A stretch of 44,869 nucleotides of DNA from Paracoccaceae bacterium (GTDB lineage: Bacteria; Pseudomonadota; Alphaproteobacteria; Rhodobacterales; Rhodobacteraceae), in the NCBI GenBank assembly GCA_026995265.1, contig JALWPC010000534.1, forward strand, positions 1-44,869, given 5' to 3'. The notes beneath the pieces were generated by a model that did no database searches, was not told the origin of the DNA, and saw only the letters and a list, made by a program, of their open reading frames with translations. Shown piece by piece: positions 20,320 through 35,245 of this stretch. The position numbers and the translations under genes are program-made. Every line of letters starts with the position of its first letter. Within the stretch, counting starts at the first letter, position 1.

Positions 20320-21507
20320 CTAACCTTCCCCCAGCCAATCCTTCAGCACTTCATCCGTATCCGCGCCACAGAGCGGTGGCGCGTGCCTGTAGGTCACCGG
20401 CGTTGCAGAGAATTTCACCGGATTGCCGATCAGCTTTACAGGGCTGTGGGGGTGGTCCATTTCCACCACCATCTCCCGCGCCGCCACTTGCGGGCTGGCA
20501 AACACTTCTGAAAGGTCGTTCACCTCGCCGCATGGCACATTATTGGCCTTCATCGCAGCGAGCATCTCCTGCTTGCCTCGCGTGGCAAACAGCGCCTCCA
20601 GCTTGGGCAACAGCAGCTCGCGGTTCTCTATCCGCTTGATATTGGTGGCAAAATCCACGTTTTCCGCCATTTCCGGCACGCCGAGAATCTCGCACAACCG
20701 CCCAAACTGGCTGTCGTTCCCCACCGCCACAATCACATGGCCATCCTTGGCGGCAAATACCTGATAGGGCACAATATTCGGGTGGCCATTGCCCCGCCGC
20801 TCGGGCACCTCGCCCGACTGCAAATAATTGGTGCCCTCATTGATCAGCCACGCGATCTGGCTATCCACCAATGCCACGTCGATATACTGCCCCTCGCCGG
20901 TCACATCCCTGTGCCGCAGCGCCGCCAGCACCGCCGTGGCCGCATACATGCCGCACATTACGTCGGCAATCCCCACCCCCACCTTCATCGGTGGACCGTC
21001 CGGCGCGCCGGTCAGGCTCATAATGCCGCCATAACCCTGCGCCATCAGGTCATAGCCCGGCAGGTGCGCATTTGGCCCCGTCTGCCCGAAGCCGGTGATC
21101 GAGCAATAAATGATCTTCGGGTTTACCGCTTTAATCGCCTCATAATCCAGCCCGTATTTCTTCAGTCCGCCGAGCTTGTAGTTTTCCACCAGCACATCGG
21201 CCTTGGCCGCCAGCGCCTTGATCAGCGCCGCCCCTTCCGCCGTGGCAATATCCACCGCCACCGAGCGCTTGTTGCGGTTGGCAGACAGGTAATAGGCGCT
21301 CTCGAATGTGTCGTTGCCGTCGGCGTCCTTCACATAGGGAGGCCCCCATTTGCGGGTATCATCCCCCGCGCCGGGCCGCTCGATCTTCACCACATCGGCC
21401 CCGTAATCGCCCAAAAGCTGGGTGCTGCTCGGCCCCGCCAGAATGCGCGACATATCCAGCACCTTCACCCCCGCCAGCGGACCGGGCCTTTCGGAACTGT
21501 TCGCCAT
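20320..21507 (-). CDS. CaiB/BaiF family (class III) CoA-transferase
   Basis: GPLAGVKVLDMSRILAGPSSTQLLGDYGADVVKIERPGAGDDTRKWGPP; start trimmed to 21507 (MANSSERPG). Confidence 0.92.
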   Translation of the reverse strand: MANSSERPGPLAGVKVLDMSRILAGPSSTQLLGDYGADVVKIERPGAGDDTRKWGPPYVKDADGNDTFESAYYLSANRNKRSVAVDIATAEGAALIKALAAKADVLVENYKLGGLKKYGLDYEAIKAVNPKIIYCSITGFGQTGPNAHLPGYDLMAQGYGGIMSLTGAPDGPPMKVGVGIADVMCGMYAATAVLAALRHRDVTGEGQYIDVALVDSQIAWLINEGTNYLQSGEVPERRGNGHPNIVPYQVFAAKDGHVIVAVGNDSQFGRLCEILGVPEMAENVDFATNIKRIENRELLLPKLEALFATRGKQEMLAAMKANNVPCGEVNDLSEVFASPQVAAREMVVEMDHPHSPVKLIGNPVKFSATPVTYRHAPPLCGADTDEVLKDWLGEG

Positions 21508-21640
21508 GCACCTTGCCTCCTGAATCTTGCTTGCCGCCACCCCGCGGCCCCTGCCCGCAGCATAGGCCCAAGCCCCGCCTGCCGCAAGCGGCCCACACCC
21601 GTTTTCACACGGATCATAAAAGGTTAACGTAGCCGCGCAC

Positions 21641-21684
21641 GCCGGATGTCCGACGGATGTCCTACAAAAGTCCGACAGATGTCC
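21641..21684 (+). repeat. array A: four 11-bp tandem units
   Basis: GCCGGATGTCC|GACGGATGTCC|TACAAAAGTCC|GACAGATGTCC; related to the inverted array at 31570-31613. Confidence 0.85.
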
Positions 21685-21771
21685 GCATGGGGGTTTTGCC
21701 CCCGTTAACCCTTGAATTCCGCCGCCGCGCATCAATATATGCAGTAACTCGAATATTTCCGGAGCCAGATC

Positions 21772-22203
21772 ATGTCTGCCAAAAACCTCACCTGCCTATC
21801 TTGCGGCACCGTAAACCGCGTGCCCGAAGAGCGCCTCTCATCCAAGCCCAAATGCGGCACCTGCGGCCAACCGCTCAACCAGCCCAAAGTCACCGAAATC
21901 GACGCCGCCACCCTCACCAAAGCCAGCAAGCGCGACCAGCTCCCGCTGGTGGTGGATTTCTGGGCCCCGTGGTGCGGCCCCTGCCGGATGATGGCACCGG
22001 AATTTTCCAAAGCCGCCACCCGGCTTGGCACGGCAGTGCGCTTTGCCAAGATCAACACAGAAGAGTTTCCTGCCGTCTCCCGGCGTCATAATATCCGCGG
22101 CATCCCAACCATGGCCCTGTTTAAAAACGGCAAAGAGGTCGCCCGCCAATCCGGTGCGCTTCGCGCCGACCAGATCAAGGCATGGGTAGAAAGCCACAGC
22201 TAA
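21772..22203 (+). CDS. trxC: thioredoxin 2 (N-terminal zinc ribbon)
   Basis: CLSCGTVNRVPEERLSSKPKCGTCG, then FWAPWCGPCRMMAPEF. Confidence 0.93.
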   Translation: MSAKNLTCLSCGTVNRVPEERLSSKPKCGTCGQPLNQPKVTEIDAATLTKASKRDQLPLVVDFWAPWCGPCRMMAPEFSKAATRLGTAVRFAKINTEEFPAVSRRHNIRGIPTMALFKNGKEVARQSGALRADQIKAWVESHS

Positions 22204-28350: not shown

Positions 28351-28995
28351 TTAAGCCACCATCGAGTCCAGAGATCCGGCAACCGGGAAGGAGGCATCAA
28401 ACCAGGCTTCCACCTCGGCCGCTGCAATGCCGGACTTGGCACAAATGCCGGCTTTTGAAGCTTCGTCCAAGGCCCAGAGGCCCGCGCTGATGGCATCCTT
28501 GCCTTCGCCAATGGTGCCCAGAATTTCCGGCTCCCAGCCGAGGCGCTTGTAAATGTGCACCATGCGGGCATCAAATACACCAACCGAGCTATCCAAGGCC
28601 CAGCGAATACCGGCCTCGCAGCCCGCCAGACACACGGACGCCCCGATGCGGTTAGCCAGCTTGCCCGCCCGTGGTGACAGGCAAAAGCGGGTGGTTTCCC
28701 AGATCAGCGGGCTCGAAAACTTAACACCATTGGTTAGATGGGAAAAGTGGTCATTGATCATGGTATTGCCGGTGGTCGGCAGGTTGCGCATAGAGCCGCC
28801 ATGGGTGCCGTCTGGCAATTCGTAGATCATATAGAGCGGGTTCATCTCGTCATACTCGTCGGTCTCGAAACCGTCTTCGCTCACGGTTACATCCCATTTC
28901 AGGCGCTCCTTGAACTGGTAGGCGCGGTCACGGAACATGCTGTCACGTAACTTGGGGAATGCGTCGAGCGCATCGGCATAGATATATTTGATCAT
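28351..28995 (-). CDS. luxI: acyl-homoserine-lactone synthase (LuxI family)
   Basis: SMFRDRAYQFKERLKWDV...DEYDEMNPLYMIYELPDGTHGGSMRNLPTTGNTMINDHFSHLTNGVKFSSPLIWETTRFCLSP. Confidence 0.93.
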   Translation of the reverse strand: MIKYIYADALDAFPKLRDSMFRDRAYQFKERLKWDVTVSEDGFETDEYDEMNPLYMIYELPDGTHGGSMRNLPTTGNTMINDHFSHLTNGVKFSSPLIWETTRFCLSPRAGKLANRIGASVCLAGCEAGIRWALDSSVGVFDARMVHIYKRLGWEPEILGTIGEGKDAISAGLWALDEASKAGICAKSGIAAAEVEAWFDASFPVAGSLDSMVA

Positions 28996-29016
28996 TGTTG
29001 TCTCCTAGGGTTGGGT

Positions 29017-29030
29017 GCATCGACTGATGC
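29017..29030. promoter_or_regulatory. inverted repeat in the luxI 5' leader
   Basis: GCATC-GACT-GATGC, a few bp upstream of AGGAG (29004-29008 region, minus strand). Confidence 0.5.
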
Positions 29031-29040
29031 GAATGAATCG

Positions 29041-29055
29041 TTAAAGAATTCTTAA
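29041..29055. promoter_or_regulatory. candidate full CtrA box upstream of luxI
   Basis: TTAA-AGAATTC-TTAA, exact match to TTAA-N7-TTAA, centred about 53 bp upstream of the luxI ATG. Confidence 0.65.
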
Positions 29056-29088
29056 CGGGCGTAAGAAACACTAAAAAAACCGTTAAGA

Positions 29089-29808
29089 TTAAAACGAAAG
29101 CAGCCCTTTGGAATAGGCTGTGATCACCGCGTGAACAGTGTTGAGGGCCCCGAGCTTATGGCGCGCCGAATCGATATAGACACGCAACGTGTGTTCCGAA
29201 ATTTTGAGCTTTTCCGAAATCTGCCCACGGTTCAGCCCCAGGGAAAGATATTTCAGCGTATCCTTCTCCCGCGGAGAAAGCTTGGCCAGCGTTTGCTCGT
29301 CTTCCGGCACGAAAATGTCGACAACCTTTTTGTGAATATAGTGGGAAATCAACATCATATCGCGCTTATATTCCTCAGAGAATTTCTCCCAGGACTCATC
29401 GTTGCAGTTGTCATTGACGGTAAAAAGCGCGAATTGCCCGTTGGGCCCGCGGATCGGTATCGAAAGCCCCTGGCTCGCCACCCCCGCAGAAATCGCTTCC
29501 CCCAGAAACTCGCGGCTGCCTTTACTTGACCAGTCAAGCTGCTTCCATTCCATCGGGTGAAACTGGCGCATCGCACCGCTGACAACAGGGTCAACGCGCA
29601 CGTATTTCCGGTCATGATAGTATTGCATCCATTCGGGGGAATAGGTGAGAGCTGCATAAGGGCGTGGTCCTACATTGACCGCATGGTAAACCGCATTGGA
29701 AATGCCGTAAGCGTCGCGAATAGCCTCGACTGACGACTGTATGTCATCGGGCGTTTGGCTCTTTTCCAGAGCATCCAGAAACGTCTCCAACTTCGTCACG
29801 GCGTTCAC
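29089..29808 (-). CDS. LuxR family transcriptional regulator (autoinducer-binding + HTH)
   Basis: EWMQYYHDRKYVRVDPVVSGAMRQFHPMEWKQLDW; HTH LSPREKDTLKYLSLGLNRGQISEKLKISEHTLRVYIDSARHKLGALNTVHAV. Confidence 0.93.
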   Translation of the reverse strand: MNAVTKLETFLDALEKSQTPDDIQSSVEAIRDAYGISNAVYHAVNVGPRPYAALTYSPEWMQYYHDRKYVRVDPVVSGAMRQFHPMEWKQLDWSSKGSREFLGEAISAGVASQGLSIPIRGPNGQFALFTVNDNCNDESWEKFSEEYKRDMMLISHYIHKKVVDIFVPEDEQTLAKLSPREKDTLKYLSLGLNRGQISEKLKISEHTLRVYIDSARHKLGALNTVHAVITAYSKGLLSF

Positions 29809-30164: not shown

Positions 30165-31418
30165 TTAACCTGTCTGCGACTCAGAGACATCCTCAAGCGT
30201 GCGCAGCCCCGTCACCGGCGCATTCACCATTACCGCCATATTGCCCGGCTTATGCTCGTTTCGCAGCATTTTAGTGTGGGCATCGGGCAGTTCCGCCCAG
30301 GGGAAGACCTCCGACATGCACGGATCAATCCGCCGCTCCAGCATCAGTTGGTTGGCAGCAGAGGCCTGTTTGAGGTTGGCAAAATGGCTGCCCTGCACGC
30401 GCTTCTGGTGCATCCAGACATAGCGCGCATCCATGGTCAGGTTATAGCCCGTGGTGCCCGCGCAAATCACCACCATGCCGCCGCGCTTGGCCACAAAGGT
30501 TGACACCGGAAAGGTCGCCTGCCCCGGGTGTTCAAACACAATATCCACATTATTGCCCTTGCCGGTGATCTCCCAAATCGCCTTGCCAAACTTGCGCACC
30601 TCGCCAAACCAGGCCTTATAGGCCTCGGTATTGACCTCGGGCAGCGCGCCCCAGCAGTCAAATTCCTTCCGGTTGATCACGCCTTTGGCCCCCAGCCCCA
30701 GCACGAACGCGCGCTTGCTTTCATCCGAAATCACCCCGATGGCATTGGCCCCGGCGGTGTTGATAAGCTGAATGGCAAACGAGCCAAGCCCGCCAGACGC
30801 CCCCCAGACCAGCACGTTTTGCCCGGGCTTAAGCGTGTGCGGGCGATGGCCAAATAGCATCCGGTAGGCGGTGGCCAGGGTGAGCGTATAGCAGGCGCTT
30901 TCCTCCCATGTCAGGTGCTTGGGGCGCTTCATGATCTGCTGGGATTGCACGCGGGTGAACTGGCCAAAGGCCCCGTCGGGCGTCTCATAGCCCCATATAC
31001 GTTGGCTGGGCGAGAACATCGGGTCGCCGCCGTTGCACTCCTCGTCGTCGCCGTCATCCTGGTTGCAATGCACCACCACCTCGTCGCCAACCTTCCAGCG
31101 TTTCACCTTGTCGCCCACCGCCCAGATCACTCCCGCCGCGTCGGAACCGGCAATGTGGTAGGGCTGTTTGTGGATGTCAAAGGGGGAAACCGGCGTGCCC
31201 AGCCCGGCCCAGACGCCATTATAATTCACCCCCGCCGCCATCACCAGAATCAGCACTTCGTGGCTATCGAGCGTCGGCGTATCTACCACCTCCAGTTGAA
31301 AGCTCTTTGCCGGCTCCCCGTGGCGCTCCCGCCGGATCACCCATGCGTGCATCTGCCTGGGCACATGGCCAAGGGGCGGAATCTCTCCGATGTCATAGAG
31401 GTCTTTCGGGTCTGTCAT
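30165..31418 (-). CDS. ccr: crotonyl-CoA carboxylase/reductase
   Basis: YHIAGSDAAGVIWAVGDKVKRWKVGDEVVVHCNQDDGDDEECNGGDPMFSPSQRIWGYETPDGAFGQF...FEHPGQATFPVSTFVAKRGGMVVICAGTTGYN. Confidence 0.97.
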   Translation of the reverse strand: MTDPKDLYDIGEIPPLGHVPRQMHAWVIRRERHGEPAKSFQLEVVDTPTLDSHEVLILVMAAGVNYNGVWAGLGTPVSPFDIHKQPYHIAGSDAAGVIWAVGDKVKRWKVGDEVVVHCNQDDGDDEECNGGDPMFSPSQRIWGYETPDGAFGQFTRVQSQQIMKRPKHLTWEESACYTLTLATAYRMLFGHRPHTLKPGQNVLVWGASGGLGSFAIQLINTAGANAIGVISDESKRAFVLGLGAKGVINRKEFDCWGALPEVNTEAYKAWFGEVRKFGKAIWEITGKGNNVDIVFEHPGQATFPVSTFVAKRGGMVVICAGTTGYNLTMDARYVWMHQKRVQGSHFANLKQASAANQLMLERRIDPCMSEVFPWAELPDAHTKMLRNEHKPGNMAVMVNAPVTGLRTLEDVSESQTG

Positions 31419-31442
31419 GGGCCTGTCCTTCAATAAATCAGT

Positions 31443-31459
31443 GCGCAACAATGTTGCGC
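31443..31459. promoter_or_regulatory. palindromic operator candidate upstream of ccr
   Basis: GCGCAACA-A-TGTTGCGC, perfect 17-bp palindrome 24 bp upstream of the ccr ATG. Confidence 0.6.
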
Positions 31460-31569
31460 TATTACTTCTGTTTTTGTAATGACATTATCCGTCGATTCCC
31501 GCAAGTGTTTTTGTGCGGTGCAACAATTTCCGGCCTCGCCCGCGCTGAAACGGCCACTTCCATGGCATG

Positions 31570-31613
31570 TGAAATCTGTATGACATCTGTCGTCTTTTTG
31601 TCGGACATCCGTA
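31570..31613 (-). repeat. array B: four 11-bp tandem units, inverted relative to array A
   Basis: Minus strand: TACGGATGTCC|GACAAAAAGAC|GACAGATGTCA|TACAGATTTCA; units 1-3 match array A units 2-4 at 27/33 positions. Confidence 0.85.
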
Positions 31614-31751
31614 GGACGCGGGCGGTGCCGACCTTCCGCGAGAGTTCGGCCATCCGGCCACACGCGCGACGCCCGCAGCGCGGCGCGGGTGCAATCTCGC
31701 CAAGCAGTGCAACGGTGGACGCGCCGCCCGCCGAGCCGAAGGCGAGGCGCG

Positions 31752-31772
31752 GTTTCGGGGCGCAGCCCCGAA
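31752..31772. terminator. hairpin downstream of the PlsB-like gene
   Basis: TTTCGGGGC-gca-GCCCCGAAA perfect 9-bp stem; no clear T-run in the minus-strand direction. Confidence 0.5.
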
Positions 31773-31786
31773 AAGCAGTTTGGCAC

Positions 31787-33160
31787 CTATCCCTCCAGAT
31801 GCGCAATCGCGTTGGCGTAATATTCCAGCAGCGCGCGGTTCTCCTCATTCACGCTATAGACCCCGCCCTCTTGGCGCAGGATGTGCCGCATTTCCAGCAT
31901 CCTTAGGCCCACATCCACGGCATAATCCTCGTCCTCACGCGGGATGTGGCTGTAAACGCCGCGCGTGGCATAGGCCTTCAGCCGCCGGTGCGCCGCACCC
32001 TTCACGCCGATTTTGCTCAGGCTGCCTGCCTCCAACATAATCGAGGCGATCAGCGAAACGGGCAGCACCGGCACCACCTTGCCGATGTCGTCCATCAGGT
32101 CTCGCCCAAGCCCCGCGATCTGCTCTTCCAGCGGGGCCGGGTGCGCCGCCAGATACCCCTTGAGCGACACCGGAGTCCCGAAGCTCACACAGGCATAGCC
32201 GAAGCGGTGATACTTCCCCGTTATCCTGAGCCAGAGCTGATGCCGCAGGAAGCGCAGCACCGCCAGCGGGCCGGTGTTGAATTGCGGCTTGCCCTCGCCG
32301 CGCGCCGCCAGCAAAACGCGGTCTTCCAACACGCGGTCATAGTTCAGGCCCACGGGCACGAACACCACGTCGCGCGTTCCCTCGGGGTTGAAGCCCCGCA
32401 CGATATAGCTCAGCAGCCCCAGTTTGGCCTCGCCCAGCTTGCCGGAGCGCGAAAGCCCGCCCTCGGGGAACACGGCCTGCGTCACCCCGCCCTCGGTGGC
32501 CATTTGCACATAGCGCGCCAGCACGCAGCGATAAAGCGGGTTGCGGGATTTGCGGCGGATGAAATAGGCCCCCATCGAGCGGATAAACCCTTGCAGCGGC
32601 CAGACCCGCGCCCATTCGCCCACCGCATAGGAGAGCGCCGAACGCTCCGAGGCCAGATAGGTGACCAGCACGTAATCCATATTCGAGCGGTGGTTCATCA
32701 CGAACACCACGGTGGAATCGGGGTTCACCCGGGCCATGGCGGCTTCATCGAGCAGCCCGATGCGCACGCGGTAAAGCGATTGCGACAGCCAGCGCGCCGC
32801 CCGTGCGGCAAAGCCGAAATAGGCAAAGGCGGAGAAATGCGGCACGATCTCGCGGGCGTATTTATGGGCCTTTTCGGCCAGCACCTCGGGGGGCGTGCCG
32901 GTTTGTGCCGCCTCTTTGGCGATGGCCTCCATGATGCGGGGGTCATGGGCCAGCCGGTCGATCAGCACCTTGCGGCGGGTGAGCTTGAAGGGCTGGATTT
33001 TGAGTTGCAAGCGGGTGTTGAGCCGCTCCACCGCGCGGTTGAAGCGCTTGCGGAAATACCAGCGCACCGAAGGCAGCAGCAGCTTATCCAGCACCGCCAC
33101 CAGCGCAAACAGCCCCGCCAGCACCGCCAGCCATACCGGAATTTCAATCGTCCCGCCCAT
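31787..33160 (-). CDS. glycerol-3-phosphate / 1-acylglycerol-3-phosphate acyltransferase (PlsB-like)
   Basis: VFVMNHRSNMDYVLVTYLASERSALSYAVGEWARVWPLQGFIRSMGAYFIRR...AVFPEGGLSRSGKLGEAKLGLLSYI. Confidence 0.9.
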   Translation of the reverse strand: MGGTIEIPVWLAVLAGLFALVAVLDKLLLPSVRWYFRKRFNRAVERLNTRLQLKIQPFKLTRRKVLIDRLAHDPRIMEAIAKEAAQTGTPPEVLAEKAHKYAREIVPHFSAFAYFGFAARAARWLSQSLYRVRIGLLDEAAMARVNPDSTVVFVMNHRSNMDYVLVTYLASERSALSYAVGEWARVWPLQGFIRSMGAYFIRRKSRNPLYRCVLARYVQMATEGGVTQAVFPEGGLSRSGKLGEAKLGLLSYIVRGFNPEGTRDVVFVPVGLNYDRVLEDRVLLAARGEGKPQFNTGPLAVLRFLRHQLWLRITGKYHRFGYACVSFGTPVSLKGYLAAHPAPLEEQIAGLGRDLMDDIGKVVPVLPVSLIASIMLEAGSLSKIGVKGAAHRRLKAYATRGVYSHIPREDEDYAVDVGLRMLEMRHILRQEGGVYSVNEENRALLEYYANAIAHLEG

Positions 33161-33298: not shown

Positions 33299-35245
33299 AT
33301 GCCGCAAAAAGACCGCCCCTGGCTTTTCCGCACCTATGCGGGCCACTCGACCGCCAGCGCCTCGAACGCGCTTTTTCGCGAGAACCTCGCCAAGGGGCAA
33401 ACCGGGCTTTCGGTGGCTTTTGATCTGCCCACGCAGACGGGCTATGACAGTGATCATATTCTGGCGCGGGGCGAGGTGGGCAAGGTCGGGGTGCCGATTT
33501 GCCATCTCGGCGATATGCGGCGGCTGTTTCAGGAAATTCCGCTCGATCAGATGAACACCTCCATGACCATCAACGCCACGGCGGCCTGGCAATTGGCGCT
33601 TTATATCGCCGTGGCCGAGGAGCAGGGGGCCGATGTGGCGGCGCTGAAAGGCACGGTGCAGAACGATATTATCAAGGAATATCTGAGCCGTGGCACCTAT
33701 ATCTTCCCGCCAGCCCCGAGCCTGAAGCTGATCGGGGATATTGTCGAATATTGTTACGCGGAATTGCCCAAATGGAACCCGATGAACGTGTGCTCCTACC
33801 ACCTGCAAGAAGCGGGCGCGACGCCGGAGCAGGAGCTGGCCTTTGCCCTGACCACGGCGATTGCGGTGCTGGACCAGGTGCGCGGGCAGGTGCCGGAGGC
33901 GGACTTCCCCGCCGTGGTGGCGCGGATCTCGTTTTTCGTGAATGCGGGCATTCGGTTTGTCACCGAGATGTGCAAAATGCGCGCCTTTGTGGACCTGTGG
34001 GATGAGATTTGCCGCGAGCGCTACGGGGTCACGGACCCCAAGCAGCGGCGGTTTCGCTACGGGGTGCAAGTGAACTCTCTGGGCCTGACCGAGCAGCAGC
34101 CGGAAAACAATGTTTACCGGATTTTGATCGAGATGCTGGCGGTGACGCTGAGCAAAAAAGCCCGCGCCCGCGCGGTGCAGCTTCCCGCCTGGAACGAGGC
34201 CTTGGGCCTGCCGCGCCCGTGGGACCAGCAATGGTCGCTGCGGATGCAGCAGATCATGGCCTATGAGACAGACCTTCTGGAATATGACGACCTGTTTGAC
34301 GGCAATCCGGCGGTGGAGGCCAAGGTGGAAGCGCTGAAGGCCGGGGCCCGCGCGGAGATTGCGCATATCGACAAGATGGGCGGCGCGGTGGCGGCGATTG
34401 AATATATGAAAACCAGCCTTGTGCAGGCCAATGCGGCGCGGCTCGGGCGGATTGAATCGGGCGACACCCCGGTGGTGGGGGTGAACCGGTTTGAGGCGGG
34501 GGAGCCTAGCCCGCTCACCGGTGGCGACAAAGAGATCATGGTGGTGGACCCGCAGGTGGAGCAGGAGCAGATCGAGGCGCTGCAGGCGTGGCGGGCGGGC
34601 CGCGACGGGGCAGCGGTGGAGGCCAGCCTCAAGGCCCTGCGGGCGGCGGCCAAGGCGGGCGAGAACATCATGCCGCCCTCGATTGCCTGCGCCAAGGCGG
34701 GCGTGACCACGGGGGAGTGGGGCGAAGCCATGCGGGCGGTGATCGGTGAATATCGCGCGCCCACGGGGGTGAGCATGGCCATGGCCAATGACACCACGGG
34801 GCTTGAGGATATTCAGGGGGAGGTGCGGGCAGCGGCGGCGCGCCTGAAGGAGCCGCTGCGCTTTCTGGTCGGTAAGCCGGGGCTGGATGGCCACTCCAAC
34901 GGGGCCGAGCAGATCGCCGTGCGGGCGCGGGATTGCGGCATGAAGGTGTTTTACGAGGGCATCCGGATGACGCCGGAAGCGCTGGTGGAGACCGCGCGCC
35001 GCGAGCGGGTGCATATCATGGGGCTGAGCATCCTGAGCGGCTCGCATGTGCCGCTGGTGGAAGAGACCATGGCGCGGCTCAAGGCGGCGGGGCTGGATAT
35101 GCCGGTGATTGTCGGCGGGATTATCCCGGATGCGGACGCTAAAACCCTGCGCGCGCTGGGCATTGCCCGTGTCTATACGCCCAAGGATTTCGACCTCAAT
35201 CAAATCATGCGGGATGTCATCTGGTTAACACAAAACCCCAAATAG
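33299..35245 (+). CDS. ecm: ethylmalonyl-CoA mutase
   Basis: Methylmalonyl-CoA mutase-type N-terminus ([18 protein letters not shown]) and B12-binding domain ([36 protein letters not shown]); near ccr. Confidence 0.95.

Follow-up and report, generated by a model that had tools for sequence, protein, structure and literature searches.

A dispersed family of 11-bp repeat arrays near gene ends in Rhodobacteraceae, with a lineage-specific copy upstream of ccr

The window, i.e., the whole stretch of DNA that was analysed, comprises 44,869 nucleotides of contig JALWPC010000534.1 from a Paracoccaceae bacterium (assembly GCA_026995265.1). It contains the crotonyl-CoA carboxylase/reductase gene ccr, preceded on the same strand by a glycerol-3-phosphate acyltransferase-like gene; between the two lie a GC-rich dispersed repeat and an array of short direct repeats, here named array B (Table 1). 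A similar array, array A, is located between a trxC-like gene and a divergent CoA-transferase family III gene. The surroundings of ccr also include adjacent genes for a luxI-type autoinducer synthase and a luxR-type regulator (28351-29808, minus strand), near ethylmalonyl-CoA pathway genes (Pfam assignments), and a methylmalonyl-CoA mutase-family gene, possibly encoding ethylmalonyl-CoA mutase (33299-35245, plus strand), that is divergent from the acyltransferase gene.

Table 1. Features of the two array loci in the window.
Feature	Position	Strand	Evidence or details
CoA-transferase family III gene, divergent from trxC	20320..21507	-	PF02515
Array A	21634..21688	+	Five units: CGCGCACGCCG GATGTCCGACG GATGTCCTACA AAAGTCCGACA GATGTCCGCAT
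trxC-like thioredoxin 2 gene, downstream of array A	21772..22203	+	PF00085, PF21352
ccr, crotonyl-CoA carboxylase/reductase	30165..31418	-	NCBIfam TIGR01751, 617 bits
Conserved ccr promoter/leader common to congeners, downstream of array B	31419..31528	-	Congener alignment
Palindrome GCGCAACAATGTTGCGC in the ccr leader	31443..31459		Kept in most congeners
About 258 bp extra relative to congeners (GC-rich repeat plus array B), between acyltransferase stop codon and ccr promoter	31529..31786	-	Aligned against the closest congener (G010) and compared with further readable ccr upstream regions in the genus; boundaries set by eye
Array B	31566..31620	-	Five 11-bp units, read from 31620 down to 31566: CGCGTCCTACG GATGTCCGACA AAAAGACGACA GATGTCATACA GATTTCACATG
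GC-rich dispersed repeat, about 120 bp	31654..31770	-	82% identity with a copy adjacent to another array; sole copy found in the window
Glycerol-3-phosphate acyltransferase-like gene, upstream of array B	31787..33160	-	Pfam PF01553, PF19277

The minus strand of positions 31570-31613 reads TACGGATGTCC GACAAAAAGAC GACAGATGTCA TACAGATTTCA, as reported in a sequence-only reading of the window, and the first three of these units are identical to array A (21652-21684, plus strand) at exactly the 27 of 33 positions claimed there. The runner-up match in the window outside array A reaches 19 of 33. That reading had described four units lying 152 bp upstream of ccr. The array is real and lies upstream of ccr on the same strand, but its near edge is 151 bp from the ATG at 31418, and alignment to the other genomic copies gives five units. 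A sequence-only profile search of the whole genome recovered positions 31568-31620 with 53 bits (E=8.7e-14), array B being one of the 16 training sequences of that profile. It was also recovered by a plain pattern search, for which the reversed-pattern control gave 0 hits. The A-rich unit of arrays A and B, at first taken as odd, is a form that middle units often take across the array family.

Comparison with the genus places array B outside the conserved part of the ccr upstream region. The closest congeners have about 110 bp between the end of the acyltransferase gene and ccr, and the gene directly adjoins a conserved block, GCACAAAAA..TTGCG..AATGTCATTACAAAA..GCGCAACATTGTTGCGC, which is intact in the window, downstream of array B. 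Array B therefore lies within DNA that is extra to this genome. The sequence-only reading had named the ccr upstream regions of relatives as the place to check its proposal and absence of the array from them as evidence against it; no array was found near ccr at any of the nine congener loci whose upstream DNA could be read. Judged from these alignments, array B is not the conserved ccr operator. The palindrome GCGCAACAATGTTGCGC in the leader is a better candidate for this function, and a ScfR/RamB-type protein might, as a guess, be its regulator (for RamB, see PMC10370305). Array A was likewise not found upstream of trxC in the eight congeners that hold trxC, within the part of their upstream DNA that was readable (L234 having been read in the wrong register). 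Both arrays sit upstream of conserved promoters. Array B is most cautiously described as a lineage-specific copy of a dispersed cis-element, any effect of which on ccr would be hypothetical, and it should not be annotated as a ccr regulatory element.

The profile search for further arrays, also suggested in the sequence-only reading, showed that arrays A and B, both real, are not a pair. Using simple patterns followed by the sequence-only profile built from 16 copies, we found 21 arrays in the 3.11-Mb, 666-contig assembly, with E values from 8e-18 to 4e-5. Their consensus is GCRCACGMCG GATGTCCGACA RATGTCCGACA AAAGTCATACA GAAATCACAG, and the genes that adjoin them are mutually unrelated. Congener genomes hold 0 to 5 weak arrays each, versus 21 here. 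Roughly half of the 21 arrays have a copy of the GC-rich repeat within a few hundred base pairs, usually on the upstream side and in the same orientation; this ~120-bp repeat is a family separate from the 11-bp arrays. Further copies of it were seen at L020, L033, L035-L037, L045, L047, L050, and L051.

Outside the genus, a scan of one genome per species yielded exact two-unit matches in three Celeribacter species; the other two-unit matches, one Streptomyces and one Acidobacteria record, were chance-like. Profile searches gave 44, 17, and 41 matches in three Celeribacter genomes, and a second model found 14 to 54 arrays in four rescanned genomes; for Celeribacter the range is 14 to 44 arrays per genome. 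Nearly every one of the 69 distinct Celeribacter arrays consists of four units (U1 NNKGYCCGACR, U2 NAWGTCCGACR, U3 NAWRTCCGACR, U4 CWWWKCCGACM) with an almost invariant CCGAC and spacers that vary mostly as A/T. Successive CCGAY motifs are spaced by 11 bp in 187 cases, by 12 bp in two, and by 13 bp in one, a count that is partly ascertainment since the profile prefers fixed spacing. A model-free scan of the Celeribacter array loci gave 70 hits at period 11 versus 0 to 2 at each other period; this was a loosened version, used after a stricter one had given nothing even in the Celeribacter background. The array family is real and apparently undescribed. No description of the element was found in the open-access literature, and there was no Rfam match at E<=1. 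A search for a plasmid or phage origin, insensitive for a 44-bp query, gave no match.

The arrays are not distributed at random with respect to genes. In Celeribacter, array-bearing gaps comprise 23 convergent, 32 to 33 co-directional (19 sense, 13 antisense), and 1 divergent, compared with 27 convergent, 85 co-directional, and 41 divergent among background gaps of at least 60 bp in 360 kb of C. halophilus. Divergent gaps thus make up 1 of 57 with arrays versus 41 of 153 in the background (p=4e-7). The arrays lie a median of 22 to 30 bp from a stop codon and 91 to 147 bp from the next start; single distances are somewhat error-prone because genes were called with a simple in-house codon model. 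Where both flanks could be called in the present genome, the gaps are mostly convergent or co-directional, the divergent exceptions being array A and the gltX-side array. Two Celeribacter species also have arrays in the gap separating rpoA from rplQ. With the array masked, intrinsic terminators were found in 12 of 14 array-bearing convergent gaps versus 7 of 13 others and in 7 of 22 versus 25 of 56 co-directional gaps, neither difference being significant. Terminators are as frequent in array-bearing gaps as elsewhere, so the data do not support the array as a terminator substitute.

Some arrays lie within genes. One in the present genome (L046, 495-544, reverse strand, G000:C597) falls in a thiamin pyrophosphokinase-like loop; a simple insertion into this gene was considered and rejected, congeners having a loop of similar length. 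An orthologous set in three Celeribacter species (L078, L106, and L128) occupies the same place in a gene that was assigned by eye as periplasmic binding protein-like.

Array positions are retained between species and, at some junctions, between genera. In 16 orthologous Celeribacter pairs, the CCGAC core is 99% identical, compared with 66% at other array positions and 44 to 61% in the 40-bp flanks, the core value being biased upward because the arrays were found by a core-based profile. Junctions common to different genera include a livG neighbour (L139 and L155), bchZ (L159 and L164, in opposite orientation), and, most prominently, the MAPEG-lpdA junction, with livG and bchZ named by eye. 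At MAPEG-lpdA, a model-free score detected period-11 arrays in 13 of 29 genomes and 11 of 24 genera, and no control period reached the period-11 array score in any genome. Related genomes sometimes carry the array in opposite orientation at the same junction (L121 versus L090/L109; L159 versus L164). These cases may reflect inversion or independent re-insertion.

A survey based on CCGAC, in which few candidates were scored per genome, found arrays in 11 of 298 genera of the family and almost none elsewhere in the class. A patchy Rhodobacteraceae trait, as this would suggest, was rejected: the figure is an underestimate because other genera use other cores. At lpdA, genera with few or no CCGAC arrays show CCGAT (G180), CCATAC/CCAGAC (G015, where 400 kb was sampled and the lpdA array is the sole known one), or AGTTAYG (G013). 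One array in G022 reads CCTAC, and most of those shown from G183 have CCGAT in U2 and CCGAA in U4. In the LpdA tree, which is rough (the G180 row is badly translated), array bearers do not form one clade.

In G013 the AGTTAYG form is used genome-wide. A model-free scan of 400 kb gave six period-11 hits, among them the lpdA array and two more of the same dialect. An AGTTAYG matrix then found 10 arrays in 1.2 Mb, the reversed matrix 0, and a similar matrix found no arrays in 760 kb of two other genera. The G013 arrays consist of four in-phase units (U1 TTTGAGTTATG, U2 AAAGAGTTAYG, U3 GAAGAGTTAYG, U4 AAAGAACTCTT), and wherever genes could be called on both sides, the gap is not divergent. One adjoins an ABC-transporter gene that also has a flanking array in G183 (L140; matched by eye). 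The evidence for dialects comes from one well-sampled non-CCGAC genus, G013, together with single sites elsewhere.

Two known kinds of element resemble the arrays in part. Mycobacterium tuberculosis PhoP requires direct repeats of 7-bp motifs separated by exactly 4 bp, and its affinity is higher for runs of three and four such motifs (PMC4832192). The arrays share with such OmpR/PhoB operators (pho box, PhoP sites) the 7-bp word, the 4-bp spacer, and the head-to-tail order at a strict 11-bp period, but their core words differ and they have no known cognate regulator. Those operators regulate promoters, whereas the arrays avoid divergent promoter regions, sit at gene ends 22 to 30 bp from stop codons, and are missing at congener ccr and trxC. 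Hence, of the OmpR-type site proposed in the sequence-only reading, the multi-unit, helix-phased architecture held up and the promoter location did not; an OmpR-type protein is a possible binder. REP/BIME elements (GTAG- and CGTC-tagged) are, like the arrays, dispersed and intergenic, with a preference for 3' ends and for gaps that are convergent or unidirectional (PMC3733652). REPs are imperfect palindromes with a GTAG or CGTC tag, whereas the arrays are phase-locked direct repeats with no constant terminal tag when aligned, and only their antisense strand folds clearly better than shuffles. The arrays number tens, not hundreds (10 to 54 per array-rich genome), and keep their positions across genera; REP/BIME copy number is given in PMC2817692 as usually more than 100 per genome. 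By architecture the arrays resemble a tandem winged-helix site and by placement a REP, and they are filed in neither family because neither the promoter location nor the tagged palindrome was found. Sites of chromosome-organising proteins (such as matS, SlmA, and Noc sites) are conserved, non-promoter, and present in tens per genome. In these respects the arrays are alike, but they are multi-unit 44-bp sites with lineage-specific dialects, show no ori/ter bias by eye in two near-complete genomes, over which their positions are spread, and are present on the second large contig too. A role as ori/ter marker was rejected on this inspection.

Our preferred reading, to which we give slightly better than even chances, is that the arrays are docking sites of a putative, cooperatively binding DNA-binding protein at transcription-unit ends that co-evolves with them. 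An array is a head-to-tail run of four units of exactly 11 bp (five in array B), each made up of a 7-bp recognition word and a 4-bp spacer that mostly contains A/T, and the protein's subunits would bind side by side on one helix face, cooperatively and in the manner of PhoP/PhoB-type winged-helix proteins. Several features together point to such cooperative binding: strict phasing by one helical turn, 7-bp words that do not vary beside A/T-containing spacers that do, occurrence in both orientations, and the genus-wide, concerted change of the word. The presence of some 20 scattered copies, with the relatives' arrays mostly just after gene ends, argues for a docking site rather than a ccr switch. 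The sites lie at transcription-unit ends and in the spaces between operon genes, not at promoters. This placement is easier to reconcile with a structural, insulating, or roadblock role than with control of promoters; the protein may act there as a roadblock, as an insulator, or in nucleoid organisation. Protein and sites would change together, giving rise to genus-specific dialects at the same junctions. Against the docking-site reading, same-junction arrays are sometimes inverted, which is also compatible with re-insertion; about half of the arrays in this genome lie beside a second dispersed repeat, as mobile DNA would; and one array here and one Celeribacter orthologous set are within coding sequence.

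A rival reading is a REP/BIME-like dispersed repeat, a short element that spreads by copying and accumulates where it is least harmful, at 3' ends and in convergent gaps, with no dedicated host function and with shared junctions as insertion hotspots. Such an origin, which we regard as doubtful but deserving serious attention, would account for the REP-like placement (PMC3733652), the very uneven copy number among congeners, the arrival of array B together with the GC-rich repeat, and the inverted copies at shared junctions. It accords poorly with the lack of a tagged palindrome, the strict 11-bp phasing, copy numbers far below those of typical REP families, positions kept from species to species and, at lpdA, in 11 genera, and orthologous arrays that keep their cores while spacers and flanks diverge, the last comparison being ascertainment-biased. 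The regulon originally envisaged, linking trxC and the CoA-transferase gene with ethylmalonyl-CoA pathway genes including ccr through an OmpR/PhoB-family response regulator at their promoters, now seems improbable. The 7+4-bp architecture fits that family (PMC4832192), and A and B do lie upstream of conserved promoters, but the 21 arrays adjoin unrelated genes, divergent promoter regions are avoided in favour of convergent gaps, and the regulon lacks conservation support because arrays B and A are missing at congener ccr and trxC.

Still less probable, and by a wide measure unlikely, is an RNA-level element in 3' UTRs, be it a terminator, a Rho-loading site, or a processing signal. Proximity to stop codons and the folding of the antisense strand (mean z -2.35 relative to shuffles) would suit it; both orientations are used, however, with 19 sense and 13 antisense in co-directional gaps, covariation within arrays is weak (p=0.10 antisense, 0.04 sense), array-bearing gaps are not poorer in intrinsic terminators once the array is masked, and Rfam holds no match. 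Chance or simple tandem slippage, which short tandem units might invite, is refuted by E values down to 8e-18, by the shared unit order of the 21 copies, by orthologous retention, and by reversed-pattern and reversed-matrix controls near zero.

Extended to the family, the docking-site reading leads to a more tentative proposal, one we think could well be wrong: a Rhodobacteraceae-wide system of promoter-avoiding, phase-locked 4 x 11-bp putative protein-binding arrays that mark transcription-unit ends. Each genus would have changed the word at all of its sites together and yet retained junctions such as MAPEG-lpdA, so that a site-protein pair switches specificity wholesale. If the arrays are binding sites, an unassigned DNA-binding system operates where core operons end (lpdA, rpoA-rplQ) in an abundant family that includes model marine bacteria, and the genus dialects would allow a direct test of how a regulator with tens of sites changes its specificity wholesale.

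Variation of the word was also seen within one species. A subfamily of arrays in Celeribacter ethanolicus has GGGTCCGACA as U1 instead of TGCCCGACA (e.g., L085, L102, L104, L107, L110, L122, and L132). Some of these sites have an orthologue in a different species that shows the TGCC form (e.g., L109/L090), and the subfamily is a partial concerted change within C. ethanolicus.
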